A DNA stretch of 32,275 nucleotides from contig SCQH01000017.1 of the NCBI GenBank assembly GCA_004321925.1, positions 1-32,275 of the forward strand. Reading direction: 5' to 3'. The DNA comes from Nitrospirota bacterium (GTDB lineage Bacteria > Nitrospirota > Thermodesulfovibrionia > Thermodesulfovibrionales > UBA6898). The translations under genes and the position numbers were made by a program. Shown here one piece after another: positions 2 through 21,975 of the stretch. Numbering within the stretch: the stretch's first letter is position 1; each line of letters starts with the position of its first letter. The notes beneath the pieces are model-generated. The model saw only the letters and a list, made by a program, of their open reading frames with translations, had not been told where the DNA came from and searched no databases.

Positions 2-334
2 ATCTCAACCTGGTACATGACCTCAAAGACCATGCTGAACGAGGGCCTGAAGCTGCTTGAGATGCTCAAGGAAGATGCTGCCCTGATGGGTGCAAGCAAC
101 CTCCATGAGCTGATGAGATGCTGGGAGAACTACCACAGGATCCTTTCTGTTGAGGCACATGCACGGCATATCCTCTTCAGGGAAGAGACCAGGTACCCTG
201 GTTACTACTACAGAGGCGACTTCCTTGCCATCAATGACAAGGATTGGAAGTGCTTTGTCAATTCAACGTACGATGCAGCAAACAACACATGGGAAATGAA
301 GAAAGTCCCGTATGTTGCGCTCATCGCTGACTAA
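2..334 (+). CDS. aprA: Adenylylsulfate (APS) reductase alpha subunit, C-terminal end (partial)
   Basis: This is the 3' end of a gene that starts before the window; the frame is open from base 2 and ends at TAA 332-334, giving about 110 residues. The FAD-containing AprA works with the Fe-S subunit AprB in the cytoplasm and interconverts APS with sulfite plus AMP, a core step of dissimilatory sulfate reduction or, in reverse, sulfur oxidation. The C-terminal pattern is characteristic of the family: a helical stretch with AEAHARHILFREETRYPG-like residues (here SVEAHARHILFREETRYPG), then GYYYRGDF and DWKCFVNSTYD. The upstream aprB expected in this kind of locus is not visible. qmoABC follows on the same strand after about 150 nt, the usual neighbourhood for the electron partner of AprBA. 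The sequence alone does not show the direction of the reaction. The identification is strong despite truncation. Confidence 0.93.
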   Translation: MSTWYMTSKTMLNEGLKLLEMLKEDAALMGASNLHELMRCWENYHRILSVEAHARHILFREETRYPGYYYRGDFLAINDKDWKCFVNSTYDAANNTWEMKKVPYVALIAD

Positions 335-342
335 GATGACCT

Positions 343-370
343 TTCCGGGAGGGCTTCGGCCCTCCCGGAA
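343..370 (+). terminator. 12-bp perfect hairpin with TTCG loop after aprA
   Basis: Positions 343-354 pair perfectly with 359-370 around a TTCG tetraloop, starting 8 nt after the aprA stop. The T-run that follows is weak (TCTTTA), so it could be a leaky terminator or a stabilising 3' end that lets aprA mRNA accumulate above the downstream qmo message. It is clearly a very stable stem; its function is inferred. Confidence 0.6.
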
Positions 371-389
371 TCTTTACGGAAAGGCACGA

Positions 390-437
390 TGCACAATGCA
401 CAATGCAAAAGGTCCCTTTTGTGCTGTGCAGTATGCA
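390..437. repeat. Imperfect inverted repeat in aprA-qmoA spacer
   Basis: Bases 390-412 form an imperfect roughly 23-bp inverted repeat with 415-437 around a 2-nt centre (AAAAGG-TC-CCTTTT at the core). The left arm also carries tandem AATGCAC-type units. It lies between the aprA hairpin and the qmoA Shine-Dalgarno and may be a dispersed intergenic repeat. No promoter is obvious to me in this spacer. Confidence 0.5.
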
Positions 438-484
438 TTTTGCGCTCACGCAAACTGACTTACTGCCTATAAGGAGGATAATAC

Positions 485-1738
485 ATGGCAGAAAATAAAA
501 AAGTACTCGTGATCGGAGGCGGCTTCAGCGGCCTTACAGCGGCTGTTGAGACTGCTGAGGCCGGTTCTGAGGTGGTCCTTATTGAGAAGACCCCATTTCT
601 TGGCGGAAGGGTCACACAGCTCAATAAATATTTCCCGAAGCTCTGCCCGCCGAACTGCGGGCTTGAGATCAATTTCAGAAGGATCAAAAATAGCGGGGAT
701 ATCACCTTCCATACGCTCGCCGAGGTGGAGAAGATCAGCGGCCAGGAAGGCAACTTCGACGTGACCGTCACGGTCAAGCCCCGCTTTGTCAATGACAAAT
801 GCACCGGCTGCAACGCCTGTGCCGAGGCATGTCCGGTCGAGATGCCGGATGAGTTCAACTTCGGCCTGAATATGACAAAGGCCGCCTACATTACGCACAA
901 TCAGGCATTCCCCTTCAAGTACGCGATCGATGGCCGTTCGTGCAAGGGCAAGGCCTGCGCCAAGTGTGTTGAGGCCTGCAAGTACGACGCGATAGATCTC
1001 GACATGAAGCCGGAGACCATCACGCTGAAGGTCGGTTCGATCATCCTTGCCTCAGGCTGGGACCCCTATGATGTCACAAAGCTCGACAACCTGGGCGGCG
1101 GCAAGATCAAAAATGTCATTACGAATATGCAGATGGAGCGGATCGCCTCGCCAAACGGCCCGACCGGAGGAAAGATCCTCAGGCCGTCTGACGGCAAGGA
1201 AGCCCACAATATCGCCTTTGTCCAGTGCGCCGGAAGCAGGGACGAGAATCATCTGCCCTACTGTTCATTTATCTGCTGCATGGCCTCGCTCAAGCAGGCG
1301 ACCTATGTGCGGGAGCAGTACCCCGAGTCAAAGGCAGAGATCTTTTATATCGATATCAGGACCCCCGGAAGATATGAGCAGTTCTACTGGAAGGTGAAGG
1401 ATGATCCGGGCGTTACCCTCACGAAGGGGAAGGTCGCCAGGATCACTGAAGAGGCCGGCACCGGCAACCTGATCGTTGAGGCCGAGGACATCCTTTCCGG
1501 CAAAAAGGTCAAACGCACCTTCGATATGGTGGTGCTGGCCACCGGAATGGTCCCGTCCACAAAGGATACAAAGATCCCTGTAGAGGTCAAATACACCCCG
1601 GACGGCTTTGTCATGCCCGCGACCCTTCAGAAGGGCGTGTATGCAATCGGCACGCTGAAAAGCCCGGTTGATGTTGCAAAGTCGGTGCAGGAAGCAACAG
1701 GGGTTGCGATCAAAAGCATTCAGAGCGTGAGGAGGTAG
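485..1738 (+). CDS. qmoA: Quinone-interacting membrane-bound oxidoreductase subunit QmoA
   Basis: QmoA is an HdrA-like flavoprotein of the QmoABC complex, which exchanges electrons between the quinone pool and AprBA at the cytoplasmic face. The 417-residue length fits the family. An FAD Rossmann motif GGGFSG is at residues 11-16 and CPPNC at 54-58. A ferredoxin-type cluster motif CTGCNACAEACP lies at 106-117, and further cysteines (C153, C158, C161, C165) form a second likely cluster site. The middle contains the HdrA/Qmo-type stretch FVQCAGSRDENHLPYC. The start is ATG 485, with AAGGAGG at 471-477 spaced 7 nt. qmoB begins 8 nt after the stop and its ribosome site overlaps the end of qmoA, so the two are co-translated parts of one operon. 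Confidence 0.95.
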   Translation: MAENKKVLVIGGGFSGLTAAVETAEAGSEVVLIEKTPFLGGRVTQLNKYFPKLCPPNCGLEINFRRIKNSGDITFHTLAEVEKISGQEGNFDVTVTVKPRFVNDKCTGCNACAEACPVEMPDEFNFGLNMTKAAYITHNQAFPFKYAIDGRSCKGKACAKCVEACKYDAIDLDMKPETITLKVGSIILASGWDPYDVTKLDNLGGGKIKNVITNMQMERIASPNGPTGGKILRPSDGKEAHNIAFVQCAGSRDENHLPYCSFICCMASLKQATYVREQYPESKAEIFYIDIRTPGRYEQFYWKVKDDPGVTLTKGKVARITEEAGTGNLIVEAEDILSGKKVKRTFDMVVLATGMVPSTKDTKIPVEVKYTPDGFVMPATLQKGVYAIGTLKSPVDVAKSVQEATGVAIKSIQSVRR

Positions 1739-1746
1739 AGGCGGCG

Positions 1747-3972
1747 ATGGAGAAGAAATTCGGAGTATATATATGCAAGGGGTGCGGTATCGGTGATACC
1801 GTTGATATAGAAAAGCTCAGGAAAAATACCGCGGGTGGTGCGCGTATAGCCGCGGACGTGATCAAGGAACATGGCATACTCTGCAGCCCCGAAGGCCTTG
1901 AGCTTATAAAGAACGACATCAAGGAAGGGACGAACACGATCATCATAGGGGCCTGCTCCCCCCGTGTCAAGTTCGAGGAGTTCGATTTCCCCGGCACGCT
2001 GACCGAACGGGTGAATCTTCGTGAATTCGTCTCCTGGACTTCAGAGCCGATGACCGAAGCGACCCAGACCCTGGCCGAAGACTATGTGAAACTGGGCGTT
2101 ATCAAGTCCCAGAAGGGCTCTCTCCCTGAGCCGAACATCCTGCCTGATCTCAGCAATACGATCATGGTGATCGGAGGCGGCATTACCGGACTGACGGCAG
2201 CGCTTGAGACAGCCAATGCCGGGTACGAGGTCATCCTTATCGAGAAAGAGGCCGAGTTGGGCGGATGGTCAGCAAAGCTCTACAAAGAGACCCCGCGCCA
2301 GTACCCGTATGACAAGCTGGATGAGCCGCAGATCTTTGACAAGATCAAGGAAGTCGAGGCGCATCCGAAGATAAAGATCTATAAATCCACGACCATTGAA
2401 AAGACTGACGGCCAGCCGGGCTTATTCGATGTGACCCTCTCAACGCAGGGTTCCAGTGAGACGGTCAAGATCGGTGCCTTCATCATGGCTGCAGGCTGGA
2501 AGCCCTATGATGCAACGAAGCTTGGGCATCTCGGCTATGGCAAGCCCAATGTGATCACGAACGTCCAGATGGAAGAGCTTGCGAAGAAGGGCAAGATCGT
2601 CCGGCCTTCTGACGGAAAAGAGGCAAAGAAGGTCGCCTTCATACAGTGCGCCGGCTCCCGTGATGCGAACCATCTCCCGTACTGTTCCTCATTCTGCTGC
2701 GGGACATCGTTAAAGCAGGCGCAGTATGTGCGTGATAAGAGCAGCGACGCCGTTGCCATGATCTTCTACAAAGACATTAGGACCCCGGGCCAGTCCGAAC
2801 TGTTTTACAAGAATATGCAGAACAACCCCGGGGTGCTGCTGACCAAGGCTGACGTGACTGCGATCACCGATGCAGGGAACGGCAACCTGTACGTTGAGGC
2901 AGAAAATACCTTCCTCGGAGAAAAGATCAAGGTTGAAGCCGACCTTGTCGTCCTTGCTACCGGCATTGTTCCGGCAACCCGCGCACCCCAGGAGTACCTC
3001 GACGGTCTGGCCGAGGCAGGTAAAAAGGGCGATGATGCGAAGAAGCTCTATGTTGACGAGACGGTCAAGCCTGATTTTGTACTGAACCTGACCTACAAGC
3101 AGGGGCCTGAACTGCCGTCGCTTGAGGGGGCCTATGGTTTTGCCGACTCGAACTTCATCTGCTTCCAGTACGAGACACGGAGGACCGGGATCTACTCGGC
3201 CGGCTGTGTCCGTCAGCCGATGAATATGACCGAGGCTATCCAGGATGCTTCCGGTGCAGCCTTAAAGGCTATCCAGTGCGTCGAGCATGTGGCGCAGGGC
3301 ATTGCCGTGCACCCGCGTGCCTGGGATGCCACTTTCCCGGACCCGATGATGATCAAATGCACCTCCTGCAAGAGATGCACGGACGAATGTCCGTTCGGCG
3401 CGATCGACGAAGATGCGAAGGGCACGCCGTTCTTTAAGATCAACCGCTGCCGCCGCTGTGCAACCTGCATGGGGGCCTGTCCGGAGAGGATCATATCCTT
3501 CAAGGATTTCAGTGTCGATATCGTCGGCTCGATGATCAAGGGGGTCGACATCAACGAGGATGATTTCAGGATCATCGTGCTGGCATGCGAAAACGATGCC
3601 TATCCGGCGCTTGACAGCGCCGCGATCAAGCGCATGAAGATCAGCCCGAGTGTCAGGATCATACCGGTTCGCTGCCTCGGATCGACGAACCTGGTCTGGG
3701 TCACCGACGCATTTTCGACCGGCATTGATGGTGTTCTCCTGCTTGGCTGCAAATACGGCGAAAACTACCAGTGTCACTTTGTCAAGGGCAGCGAACTTGC
3801 CAACTACCGTTTCAGCAAGGTGCAGGAGACGCTCAACAAGCTCCAGCTTGAGGCTGAACGGTGCCAGTTGATGCAGGTCTCGATATCTGACTATGACAAG
3901 CTGCCGCAGATGATAAATGACTTCGTTGCAAGGGTTGAAGAGATAGGCCCTAACCCGTTCAAGGAATTATAA
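1747..3972 (+). CDS. qmoB: Quinone-interacting membrane-bound oxidoreductase subunit QmoB
   Basis: QmoB is the large HdrA-like flavoprotein of the complex, here 741 residues. An N-terminal region with cysteines CKGCG (10-14) resembles the HdrA N-terminal domain. It is followed by an FAD motif GGGITG at 143-148 and the FIQCAGSRDANHLPYC stretch shared with QmoA. Two [4Fe-4S] ferredoxin motifs lie at about 538-549 (CTSCKRCTDECP) and 568-579 (CRRCATCMGACP). The last 130 residues form an MvhD-like domain that keeps four cysteines (LACEND, VRCLG, LLGCKYGENYQC), the usual [2Fe-2S] site. MvhD-type domains hand electrons between flavoproteins, so QmoB probably links the flavins to the rest of the complex. 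It sits tightly between qmoA and qmoC. Confidence 0.95.
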   Translation: MEKKFGVYICKGCGIGDTVDIEKLRKNTAGGARIAADVIKEHGILCSPEGLELIKNDIKEGTNTIIIGACSPRVKFEEFDFPGTLTERVNLREFVSWTSEPMTEATQTLAEDYVKLGVIKSQKGSLPEPNILPDLSNTIMVIGGGITGLTAALETANAGYEVILIEKEAELGGWSAKLYKETPRQYPYDKLDEPQIFDKIKEVEAHPKIKIYKSTTIEKTDGQPGLFDVTLSTQGSSETVKIGAFIMAAGWKPYDATKLGHLGYGKPNVITNVQMEELAKKGKIVRPSDGKEAKKVAFIQCAGSRDANHLPYCSSFCCGTSLKQAQYVRDKSSDAVAMIFYKDIRTPGQSELFYKNMQNNPGVLLTKADVTAITDAGNGNLYVEAENTFLGEKIKVEADLVVLATGIVPATRAPQEYLDGLAEAGKKGDDAKKLYVDETVKPDFVLNLTYKQGPELPSLEGAYGFADSNFICFQYETRRTGIYSAGCVRQPMNMTEAIQDASGAALKAIQCVEHVAQGIAVHPRAWDATFPDPMMIKCTSCKRCTDECPFGAIDEDAKGTPFFKINRCRRCATCMGACPERIISFKDFSVDIVGSMIKGVDINEDDFRIIVLACENDAYPALDSAAIKRMKISPSVRIIPVRCLGSTNLVWVTDAFSTGIDGVLLLGCKYGENYQCHFVKGSELANYRFSKVQETLNKLQLEAERCQLMQVSISDYDKLPQMINDFVARVEEIGPNPFKEL

Positions 3973-3984
3973 GAGGAGGAGCAG

Positions 3985-5145
3985 ATGGCAGAGCAGATAA
4001 TTAAACCTGACTTAAACTTCATAAATGATGTGATCAACGCAGGGGGTGAGTCACTGAAGAAATGCTATCAGTGCTCGACATGCACGGTCGTCTGCAATGT
4101 GACGCCTGATGACAAGCCCTTCCCGCGCAAGGAGATGGCCCTCGCCCAGTGGGGCCAGAAGGACAAACTTTTTGGAAATCCGGACATCTGGCTATGCCAT
4201 CAGTGCAGCGATTGCACCGCGTATTGTCCAAGGGGCGCCAAGCCGGGAGAGGTTTTGGGCGCGATAAGAAAGCTCAGCATCGAGGAATTCTCGGTCCCCG
4301 GGTTCCTGGCGAAGATGGTAAACAATCCGAAATTTCTGCTGGTGCTTCTTGCGGTCCCTGCTCTGCTCTATATCCTGATCATCGCGTCACAGGGCTTTTT
4401 CGGGAGCGTTGATATCCCAACAGAGGAGGGGAAGATCGTTTATGGAAAATTCCTTTTTTCCCTGTATTATGTCGACACGATATTTACCGCTACAGCCCTC
4501 TTTGCGGTGTTTAGTCTCTTCCTGGGTGTCACAAAGTACTGGAAGGCCATGGCTGCAGAAAACCCAAATACCAAGACAGGCAGTCTCGGGAACGCGATCT
4601 CTGCAACAATTGTGGATATACTCGGGCATAACCGGTTCAGGAAGTGCGAGGTAACAAAAGGCAGGGCAACAGCACATATGCTGGTATTTTACAGCTTCAT
4701 CGGCCTGTTCATCACCACCATACTGGCCTTTGCGAGGGTCATCCCGGAATACATCCATCACCTGAAGATCTCTGAGAGCATTGACGTTCACCAACTTGAC
4801 TGGCTTGCCTACATTTATAAGCCGATAGGCAATGTCAGTGCGGCCGCCCTGATGCTGGGGATCCTGTTGATGATGTCAAACAGGTTCAAAAACCAGGAGA
4901 AGGCCGGGCTGGGAAGCTACTATGACTGGCTTTTTATCTCCCTGGTGGCAGGAGTCGGGATCACCGGACTGCTGGCGCAGTTTCTGAGAATGGCCAACAC
5001 CGTGGCGGCATATCCTACTTATGTTGCTCACCTTTGTCTGGTGTTTTTTCTTTTTGCATATGCACCTTTTTCAAAGATGGCACACATGGCATACAGGACG
5101 ACCGCAATGGTCTATACAAAGCACAGCGGCAGGGACGCGGAATAA
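3985..5145 (+). CDS. qmoC: Quinone-interacting membrane-bound oxidoreductase subunit QmoC
   Basis: QmoC anchors the complex in the inner membrane and reacts with menaquinone. The 386-residue protein joins an HdrC-like Fe-S domain to an HdrE/NarI-like cytochrome b domain. Two cluster motifs are seen at 27-37 (CYQCSTCTVVC) and 71-81 (CHQCSDCTAYC). About six hydrophobic segments follow, roughly 117-137, 165-190, 228-252, 285-302, 316-336 and 345-364, with histidines (for example in the AHML and YVAHL helices) that could bind heme. The start ATG 3985 follows AAGAGGAGGAG. It is the last of the three qmo genes; a CBS-domain gene starts 48 nt later. Confidence 0.95.
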   Translation: MAEQIIKPDLNFINDVINAGGESLKKCYQCSTCTVVCNVTPDDKPFPRKEMALAQWGQKDKLFGNPDIWLCHQCSDCTAYCPRGAKPGEVLGAIRKLSIEEFSVPGFLAKMVNNPKFLLVLLAVPALLYILIIASQGFFGSVDIPTEEGKIVYGKFLFSLYYVDTIFTATALFAVFSLFLGVTKYWKAMAAENPNTKTGSLGNAISATIVDILGHNRFRKCEVTKGRATAHMLVFYSFIGLFITTILAFARVIPEYIHHLKISESIDVHQLDWLAYIYKPIGNVSAAALMLGILLMMSNRFKNQEKAGLGSYYDWLFISLVAGVGITGLLAQFLRMANTVAAYPTYVAHLCLVFFLFAYAPFSKMAHMAYRTTAMVYTKHSGRDAE

Positions 5146-20561: not shown

Positions 20562-20597
20562 AAAAAGAGAGGCGGTGTTCATCACCGCCTCTCTTTT
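20562..20597 (-). terminator. Terminator of the cysteine-rich protein operon
   Basis: A 15-bp perfect stem (20563-20577 with 20583-20597, loop of 5 nt) lies about 26 nt after the stop of the 128-residue gene. Read on the minus strand it ends in five U residues. Because the arms carry A4/T4, it may also stop transcription from the plus strand. Confidence 0.85.
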
Positions 20598-20622
20598 AAT
20601 TTCATGCCCGGGTTACGGACAG

Positions 20623-21009
20623 CTAGTTGACCTTAACTTTCTCCATGTCCTTGCCGCAGGTGCATTTGCCGGGGTTCTGGCTGATCGTGTCGCATTTGCA
20701 TGCAGGTCCGCAGGCGCAGGCATACTGACCGGTCGTCTTAAATGCCCTTTCCTTTGTCCAGCCCTCTGCCTTGAGCGTGGCCTTTCCTTCTTCTGCCTTG
20801 ACTACCGTGGCCTTGACCATATCCTTGCCGCAGGTGCATTTGCCGGCATTGCGGGACATGCTGTCACACGGACATTTTTCTCCGCAGTTGCAGGCGTAAA
20901 TCTCATCTCCTGCCTTCAGCTCCATCGTACTCTTCAGTCCTGCAAAGGCAACCACTGCCAAGGCAACGGTCAATAAGGCAACCAATCCTGTTAATGCTGA
21001 TCTCTTCAT
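20623..21009 (-). CDS. Secreted cysteine-rich protein with two metal-binding-like repeats
   Basis: This 128-residue protein has a clear signal peptide (hydrophobic 5-22, likely cut after AFA). The mature part is two copies of a motif of about 28 residues. Repeat 1 (39-66) starts YACNCGEKCPCDSMS and ends GKCTCGKDM; repeat 2 (about 95-122) starts YACACGPACKCDTIS and ends with the same GKCTCGKDM. Each copy has six cysteines, twelve in total. The layout recalls the heavy-metal-binding domain found at the N-terminus of some metal-efflux proteins (Y-C-P-x-H-P...PGKCPxCGMxL), but with extra cysteines. Periplasmic metal or redox-metal binding is likely; the ligand is unknown. Start ATG 21009 has GGAGGAG. 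It lies 24 nt behind the small double-CxxC gene and is followed by a strong terminator. Confidence 0.82.
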   Translation of the reverse strand: MKRSALTGLVALLTVALAVVAFAGLKSTMELKAGDEIYACNCGEKCPCDSMSRNAGKCTCGKDMVKATVVKAEEGKATLKAEGWTKERAFKTTGQYACACGPACKCDTISQNPGKCTCGKDMEKVKVN

Positions 21010-21033
21010 TCTTTCTCCTCCTAGGTTATGGGA

Positions 21034-21240
21034 TTAATTGTAGGTGATCTGGATCTCCCAGCCTACACTGATATAGTCTGAATTCAGTTTTTCGAGGCAG
21101 GGCAAACAGATAGCATCATTATCGTTCTGTGCCGGGAGATTCAGCCCGTCACCCGCCCTGAGGCTCTTCCGGGTCCTTCCGGCTTCATGGTGAACCATCC
21201 ACGGGACCTCTCTTTTGCATATACGACAAAGCTTTTTCAT
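21034..21240 (-). CDS. Small double-CxxC (zinc-ribbon-like) protein
   Basis: A 68-residue soluble protein with CRIC at 5-8 and CLPC at about 45-48, a spacing suitable for one tetrahedral zinc or iron site. The middle is basic and hydrophilic (HHEAGRTRKSLRAGDG). There is no helix-turn-helix or enzyme motif, so I do not assign a function. A strong ribosome site (GAGGAGG) lies before ATG 21240. It is the first gene of a two-gene operon with the secreted cysteine-rich protein, and its predicted promoter carries a Crp/Fnr-type palindrome near -41. A role in regulation or metal handling is possible. Confidence 0.72.
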   Translation of the reverse strand: MKKLCRICKREVPWMVHHEAGRTRKSLRAGDGLNLPAQNDNDAICLPCLEKLNSDYISVGWEIQITYN

Positions 21241-21279
21241 ATAAGCCTCCTCGTCCAGCGTCGCTATACTCCTGATTAA

Positions 21280-21321
21280 ATTATAAGGGGATGGCTGTAG
21301 AAAGTATGTGACAATGTCACA
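21280..21321 (-). promoter_or_regulatory. Crp/Fnr-type operator and -10 box of the cysteine-protein operon
   Basis: The palindrome TGTGACA-A-TGTCACA occupies 21307-21321. On the minus strand TATAAT is at 21285 to 21280 and no good -35 exists. The palindrome centre is 29 bp upstream of the first base of the -10 box, about -41 from the expected start near 21273. That is the class II activator position of Crp/Fnr proteins. The leader would be about 33 nt. Confidence 0.6.
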
Positions 21322-21333
21322 GAACAGGCAGGA

Positions 21334-21975
21334 TCAGATATTGGTCAACTGGATGAGATTTCGGGAGAGGACTATTTTCCCTCTTCTTTCAAAGTCCTTG
21401 AGGATCCTGCTGACGACCTCCCGGGAGGTGCCGAGGTCGTTTGCGATCTTCTGGTGGGTTATTGCCAGCCTTCCGTCTGCTGCTTCGGTCCTGAGGTAAT
21501 CACTGAGCCGCTCGTCCATCTTCCCGAAGGCTATCTCTTCGACCAGGGCCATTACCGTGGCAAGCCGCTGGCTGAGGATCTTGAATACAAAGTCCCGCAT
21601 TTCCGGATACTTTTCGATCATCCTGCGGAATTCCCCTGCAGGGACCAGGAGCATTTCACCCCCCTGCACAGCGCTCGCATGAGCGGGGTAGGAAAGATCG
21701 GAGAGTATGCAGGAGGCGTTCAGTATGCAGGTCTCCCCCTTATGGATCTCATAGAGCGTTATCTCCCTCCCCCCCTCCCCGACCTTGAAGACCCGGATCT
21801 CGCCCGACAGGAGAAAGGCAATGGCCGAGCAGGTATCGCCCTCGTTATAGACGTTCATACCCTGGGGGAATGTCTGGAGGCGTGAGGAGGTAAAAAGGTC
21901 TTTCAGCAAGGCTTCCTGTGCATCATGGAAGACCGGAAAGGTTTCGAGGAACCGTGACCGCGCATTCTCCTGCAT
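21334..21975 (-). CDS. Crp/Fnr-family transcription regulator
   Basis: A 213-residue regulator with an N-terminal cyclic-nucleotide-binding-type beta-barrel (about 15-125), a long dimer helix and a C-terminal winged helix. The recognition helix reads TSREVVSRILKDF: Arg-Glu-x-x-x-Arg spacing as in E. coli CRP (R180, E181, R185), which reads TGTGA half-sites. No N-terminal Fnr cluster cysteines exist, but two cysteines lie in GETCILNASC inside the sensor domain, possibly redox or heme related (inference). I chose ATG 21975 (MQENAR); a longer frame from 22020 is A+T-rich promoter-like DNA. It is directly upstream of, and codirectional with, the small double-CxxC and cysteine-rich genes, with the matching palindrome between. 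Confidence 0.88.
   Translation of the reverse strand: MQENARSRFLETFPVFHDAQEALLKDLFTSSRLQTFPQGMNVYNEGDTCSAIAFLLSGEIRVFKVGEGGREITLYEIHKGETCILNASCILSDLSYPAHASAVQGGEMLLVPAGEFRRMIEKYPEMRDFVFKILSQRLATVMALVEEIAFGKMDERLSDYLRTEAADGRLAITHQKIANDLGTSREVVSRILKDFERRGKIVLSRNLIQLTNI

Follow-up and report, generated by a model that had tools for sequence, protein, structure and literature searches.

The regulator P0001, encoded in a 32,275-nucleotide stretch of Nitrospirota DNA (the window, i.e. the whole stretch analyzed), is a Crp/Fnr member whose odd 15-bp operator, cysteine cassette and sulfur regulon make it a distinct variant of that superfamily. Comparison of sequences across genomes leads us to propose, with a probability of about 65%, that P0001 is a thiol-based, reactive-sulfur-responsive class II activator; that the 15-bp palindrome next to its gene is an operator is near certain.

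An odd-length palindrome ahead of a cysteine-rich operon

The locus reads on the minus strand, in the order P0001 (21975-21334), palindrome, TATAAT, P0002 (21240-21034), P0003 (21009-20623) and a terminator-like repeat (20598-20563). Its features are as follows.

21334..21975, minus strand: P0001, Crp/Fnr-family regulator, 213 aa; Cys49, Cys83, Cys89; recognition helix S184-R-E-V-V-S-R190
21307..21321, no strand assigned: operator TGTGACAATGTCACA, 15-bp palindrome, half-sites 5 nt apart, centre at about -41
21303..21308, minus strand: degenerate -35 CATACT, assigned from family profile and sequence, overlapping the promoter-proximal half-site 17 bp before the -10
21280..21285, minus strand: -10 element TATAAT, first base 29 nt from the operator centre; predicted +1 near 21273
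21034..21240, minus strand: P0002, small protein of 68 aa, CxxC...CxxC, zinc-ribbon-like, no Pfam match; RBS GAGGAGG
20623..21009, minus strand: P0003, exported-type protein of 128 aa, two 6-Cys repeats (12 Cys) with metallothionein-like spacing
20563..20598, no strand assigned: strong inverted repeat AAAAGAGAGGCGGTG...CACCGCCTCTCTTTT, likely intrinsic terminator of the P0002-P0003 operon

The palindrome is perfect and has a single match in the window even when up to three mismatches are allowed; TGTGA-N5-TCACA likewise occurs only at 21307-21321, and a window scan for TGTGA/TCACA pairs with N4, N6, N7 or N8 returned none. Simple arithmetic predicts roughly two perfect palindromes with 7-bp arms, of any sequence, per 32 kb; such a palindrome is therefore not rare by itself, and the significance of the window site rests on its conservation. 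An earlier sequence-only reading of this DNA had placed the palindrome between the regulator gene and the double-CxxC/12-Cys operon with its centre 29 nt before the TATAAT, and both statements are exact (centre 21314, first base of the minus-strand TATAAT 21285). The site, which would drive P0002, lies 74 nt from the first start codon, compared with 67-84 nt for the DUF2892 sites at other loci; the window operon has no DUF2892 gene, and the regulator stands beside the operon instead.

The regulator and its site occur together

We searched 61 related genomes for orthologs of P0001, defined by at least 51% identity (every other match is at about 33% or less), and found them in 13. The exact site TGTGAC-N3-GTCACA is present in 11 of the 61 genomes, 10 of which have the ortholog (hypergeometric p=3.3e-8); the same pattern read backward gave 2 matches in 2 of the genomes searched. 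P0001 thus shows the combination of ortholog and TGTGAC-N3-GTCACA that marks the subfamily, and the pairing of regulator and operator that had been proposed from the window is borne out. The exact 15-bp site in the genome without an ortholog (L087, G050:C17:65002-65016) is perhaps a chance occurrence. The even alternative TGTGAC-N4-GTCACA, which is the classical N6-spaced CRP form, was rejected as the general site; it does not clearly track the ortholog in the 61 genomes, and one subclade uses it.

Each of the 13 ortholog genomes has a full-length DUF2892 (PF11127) gene with an upstream site at no more than one mismatch, 67-84 nt before the gene (308 in one case), and among the DUF2892 genes examined in genomes that have no ortholog, not one carries a site at that stringency. 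In genus g5 the order is site-DUF2892-P0002-P0003 and the regulator lies on another contig; because the site is kept on the P0002-P0003 operon without a linked regulator, the link appears to be functional and not one of mere neighbourhood. The regulator was seen beside P0002-P0003 in this genome only, the usual pair being regulator and DUF2892, so that the "compact sensor-effector unit" of the sequence-only reading is not supported in that form. A DUF2892 gene directly behind the 15-bp site is usual in the subfamily, not defining, and is not found in the window.

Twelve of the DUF2892 sites in ortholog genomes have the 3-nt spacer and that in P0001's own genome (G000) a 4-nt spacer; there the best DUF2892 gene stands behind the 16-bp site TGTGACTTTTGTCACA (L148, G000:C40:1307-1322), whose half-site-to--10 distance is the same as for the 15-bp sites. 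The same regulator may read both spacings, or another protein may read the N4 site. Candidate sites at one mismatch or fewer are few in this genome (four), and the three inexact ones are probably due to chance.

A scan of 84,980 species genomes yielded 50 regulator loci, mostly from Nitrospirota with some from Thermodesulfobacteriota and Myxococcota, in which we counted TGTGAC/GTCACA pairs at spacers of 0-8 alongside reversed controls. Spacer 3 gives 20 exact and 11 one-mismatch sites (31) in 30 of the 50 loci, with no site in the reversed controls; spacer 4 gives 3 exact and 8 one-mismatch sites in 6 loci, and all other spacers are at background level, the loci being phylogenetically related so that these counts are not independent events. 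Conservation of the palindrome in related loci, which the sequence-only reading had named as a check, is thus seen both in the 61 genomes and in the wider set, and its suggestion that the 5-nt TGTGA/TCACA spacing marks a distinct subgroup agrees with the enrichment of spacer 3. The regulators of the six spacer-4 loci cluster together in the tree, and protein and spacer length have apparently co-evolved in this subclade. Its members (L125, L127, L128, L131-L133) carry a CIINA[SL]C cassette (CIINASC/CIINALC) and pair with 16-bp sites. At a further locus (L150, G002:C69), two 16-bp palindromes, at 2789 and 4799, precede genes of one paralogous family that encode large exported proteins.

Conserved cysteines in the regulator

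P0001 has the cNMP-binding fold and C-terminal Crp-type HTH of the Crp/Fnr superfamily (PF00027, E=5.8e-13; PF13545, 4.2e-11; PF00325, 5.5e-8). The R-E-x-x-x-R recognition helix noted in the sequence-only reading is R185-E186-V-V-S-R190, with R185, E186 and R190 invariant across 12 orthologs, as are C49, C83 and C89. The best PDB sequence match is 3dv8 (E=1.3e-29, 28% identity over most of the length). An AlphaFold model (mean pLDDT 86, pTM 0.63) shows the CRP fold within each domain and matches the 3dv8, CRP and GlxR structures; against whole chains the rmsd is high, which leaves the domain arrangement uncertain. P0001 scores far under the cut-offs of the characterized types: 53.1 bits against 266 for the NCBIfam CRP equivalog, 29.9 against 228 for Fnr, and similarly for NtcA and FtrB. 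It has no FNR-type N-terminal [4Fe-4S] cysteine cluster, its first cysteine being residue 49.

In CRP, Arg and Ser ligands of the phosphate-binding cassette hold the cAMP phosphate. By-eye placement puts C83-x5-C89 of P0001 within this segment (GETCILNASC...YPAHA) and Y96-P97-A98 at the positions where the Arg/Ser ligands of CRP would be expected, which would make cAMP an unlikely ligand. Cys83 is kept in nearly all members, usually as C-x5-C, so that P0001 and most of the subfamily share a cassette cysteine followed five residues later by a second one; in eight Rhodobacterales regulators this pair accounts for exactly the two cysteines present. A strict two-cysteine switch is not universal, with C89 and C49 each missing in some clades: Cys89 is Ser or Ala in L113 and L134-L137, though site and DUF2892 are retained, and Cys49 is absent in L131-L133 and the Rhodobacterales members.

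Targets, neighbours and the probable signal

The E. coli ygaP gene carries the same membrane domain as DUF2892. Genes behind family sites are dominated by this domain (YgaP-TM) and also encode P0002/P0003-like proteins, rhodanese (G029, and as DUF2892-rhodanese in G030), a PccH cytochrome, an MBL hydrolase and, in L118 and L129, the regulator itself. The spacer-4 regulators L131-L133 adjoin TusA, an SQR-like flavoprotein and DUF1641 (domains tested in L133). Homologs in Clostridia (33% identity) adjoin a Pyr_redox-rhodanese-TusA-DsrE fusion of the CoADR type, about 100 nt upstream of which lies TGTGATTAAGTCACG, a weak, site-like palindrome with two mismatches, seen in two near-identical genomes.

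Pseudomonadota homologs are plasmid-borne and 34-44% identical to P0001, and the annotated plasmid order is Crp/Fnr - DUF2892 - YeeE/YedE - DUF6691 - MBL hydrolase - TIGR01244 sulfurtransferase - SulP or SQR-type flavoprotein; in Thiothrix and Azospirillum the Crp/Fnr gene is paired with DUF2892, and in Rhodobacterales the same odd-spaced site accompanies an operon of YeeE/YedE, persulfide dioxygenase and SQR. The Paracoccus aminophilus MBL protein matches the Blh sulfurtransferase/dioxygenase model over its dioxygenase part (E=2e-112) while scoring under the curated cut-off, which was set for a two-domain protein, and the flavoproteins match type III SQR, under its cut-off. An odd palindrome lies downstream of the homologs in Thiothrix, Azospirillum, Paracoccus, Ruegeria and Thioclava, and spacer 3 is best or joint-best of ten spacers in 12 of 12 regulator-to-next-gene intervals (1-3 mismatches; ties in L217 and L224). 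Regulator and odd-length site appear to be conserved together in at least two, probably several, phyla. The subfamily has limits: the Persicobacter (Bacteroidota) homolog, at 33.5%, has neither sulfur-type neighbours nor the site, and the matches in Pusillibacter, Caballeronia and Deinococcus (25-33%) have no such neighbours.

Because the repeated partners are persulfide and sulfane-sulfur proteins, and because the regulator stands where ArsR-type repressors stand elsewhere, we infer a reactive-sulfur signal, which would act on Cys83 with Cys89 or Cys49 and which we consider as probable as the main reading itself. In Azospira suillum a DUF2892 gene is up roughly 10-fold during H2S oxidation, its deletion having a minor effect (PMC5358917); E. 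coli YgaV governs ygaP upon sulfide via a Cys31-Cys98 tetrasulfide (PMC9774250), and BigR governs a yeeE-yedE-pdo2 operon (PMC7315123). The metal, redox or nitrosative signal guessed in the sequence-only reading fits the targets and neighbours less well than reactive sulfur does.

Nitric oxide is the main rival. The same regulator and operator could answer NO or nitrosative stress, through S-nitrosation of the same thiols or through bound haem, as DNR/NnrR do; NO-type haem proteins lie behind family sites (cytochrome P460 in L080, truncated globin with DUF2892 in L123, cytochrome c' in L124), and the NnrR regulon of Bradyrhizobium includes a DUF2892 gene and a truncated haemoglobin (PMC6710368). 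We regard this as unlikely, given that sulfur genes recur next to the regulator in Rhodobacterales, the N4 clade and Clostridia and that we noticed no nor, hcp or nir gene following a family site.

Somewhat less probable still is that the same regulator and operator respond to a thiophilic metal (Cu, Zn) or to thiol oxidation in general, with P0003 as a metallothionein-like buffer. P0003, with its 12 Cys downstream of a signal-like N-terminus, weakly resembles metallothioneins, under the cut-offs of both models (PF01439, 15.1 of 23 bits; MymT, 16.2 of 80), some P0003 homologs adjoin NosL, and CutA1 follows DUF2892 in L085 and L126; against this, most family targets have no metal link, and the P0003 copies beside NosL have no family site. 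For P0003 itself, whose homologs stand beside NosL at other loci, a metal signal is possible.

P0003 paralogs occur outside the regulon (L006-L014, L026-L030, L164), five of them adjoining NosL-domain genes, a neighbourhood that suggests copper; a larger paralog is on contig C21 of P0001's own genome (L161). Elsewhere in the window, positions 17-5145 hold the end of aprA, two HdrA-like (QmoA/QmoB-type) flavoproteins, QmoC, a CBS-domain gene and a membrane pyrophosphatase, which would be genes of sulfate/sulfur energy metabolism; the aprA end and the qmoABC-like genes speak for the sulfur reading.

Promoter architecture predicts class II activation

The profile of the 31 site-bearing promoters in the wider set is TYTGTGAC-WWW-GTCACA-K-A-C, followed by T at +29 (28/31), A at +30 (25/31) and T at +34 (28/31). 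These are the three most conserved bases of a sigma70 -10 and place the operator centre at -41, in agreement with the class II geometry deduced earlier from the window alone. Among 26 DUF2892 promoters, TA...T at +29 scores 66 of 78 possible matches, and no position scored above 41 in 2000 shuffles. A further rise in TATAAT similarity, at +34, was discarded because it reflects the final, conserved T of this -10. Nearly all of the 31 promoters also share A at +9 (30/31) and C at +10 (29/31). The conserved KAC falls on a degenerate -35, CA[T/G]AC (family consensus CAKACa), which lies 17 bp upstream of the -10 and overlaps the right half-site. Of the earlier statement that the TATAAT lacks a -35, the TATAAT stands but the wholly absent -35 does not. 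Read by hand, most promoters, whether of the spacer-3 or the spacer-4 class, have 27 nt between the right half-site and the -10; since this distance is kept in most spacer-4 promoters, the promoter-proximal half-site is the fixed one.

The layout is that of a class II activator, which suggests direct binding and activation. A regulator that instead represses, blocking RNA polymerase at -41, would account for the overlap of site and -35; we consider this improbable, as the -35 is weak, the operator centre keeps the 29 nt from the -10 that class II activation requires, and the 27-nt distance recurs in most hand-checked promoters whichever their spacing class. A further reading of the palindrome, as an RNA hairpin or a terminator belonging to the regulator gene, can be dismissed. 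The palindrome lies 12 bp past the regulator stop and could fold with a 6-bp stem and 3-nt loop, but it has no T-run, such sites also stand before unlinked operons that no regulator gene precedes, and the palindrome is coupled to a -10 at fixed distance.

Proposed mechanism and relation to known regulators

We propose that P0001 is a thiol-switched activator in which reactive sulfur species (persulfides, polysulfides, sulfane sulfur) would modify Cys83, a residue of what was once the cyclic-nucleotide phosphate-binding cassette, and Cys89 or Cys49 would serve as the resolving partner. Once active, the dimer would bind TGTGAC-WWW-GTCACA at -41 and bring sigma70 RNA polymerase to a promoter whose -10 is good but whose -35 is poor. 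Its targets across the family would be the YgaP-TM (DUF2892) membrane protein, rhodaneses and persulfide-oxidizing operons; in its own genome the site would drive P0002 (CxxC) and P0003 (exported, 12 Cys), with the variant site preceding the best DUF2892 gene. The linkage of regulator, site and promoter and their spacing emerge from the genome comparison.

Crp/Fnr operators are normally even, at 14-16 bp. P0001 and its promoter resemble E. coli CRP at class II promoters (TGTGA-N6-TCACA at -41.5) in fold, R-E-x-x-x-R helix, TGTGA half-site and -10 distance; the half-sites here are one base closer, and the cassette, judged by eye, appears to be without the Arg/Ser phosphate ligands of CRP. Eubrec_1222 of Eubacterium rectale (3dv8), an uncharacterized Crp/Fnr protein, has the Cys49, Cys83 and Cys89 positions in common with P0001. 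DNR/NnrR/FnrP-type regulators read FNR-type half-sites (TTGAT/TTG-N8-CAA) with even spacing and are not known to have a C-x5-C signature as a group. They share with P0001 the superfamily and some targets (truncated globin, DUF2892; PMC6710368). YgaV, BigR and SqrR have similar kinds of target (YgaP TM domain, rhodanese, PDO, YeeE/YedE) and a two-cysteine chemistry (PMC9774250, PMC7315123), but they are ArsR-type repressors of an unrelated family, whereas P0001 is a predicted class II activator.

The broader proposition, to which we give roughly even odds, is that a whole subfamily detects persulfide/sulfane sulfur with cysteines that occupy the old cAMP pocket and recognizes an odd 15-bp operator, as an activator counterpart of YgaV/BigR/SqrR. 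Its members would occur in Nitrospirota and, with lower identity, in Thermodesulfobacteriota, Myxococcota, Pseudomonadota and possibly Clostridia, one subclade having moved to a 16-bp site.

Significance

Our literature search found no description of a P0001-type regulator, operator or regulon; subscription journals lay outside its scope and the slash in "Crp/Fnr" is unsearchable, so that a published account may exist elsewhere. The passages on Crp/FNR in the review PMC9774590 contain no such regulator, and the only match that combined the Fnr family and persulfide with sulfur genes, PMC8014003, concerns denitrification regulators. Under the proposed reading, a group annotated only as "Crp/Fnr family transcriptional regulator" in the public records examined would acquire a function, a binding site and a testable signal, and hard-to-culture sulfur-cycling bacteria would have a named regulon (DUF2892, rhodanese, persulfide oxidation, small Cys-rich proteins). 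The conserved odd 15-bp operator, together with the one clade at 16, is a natural experiment on how a dimer reads half-site spacing.
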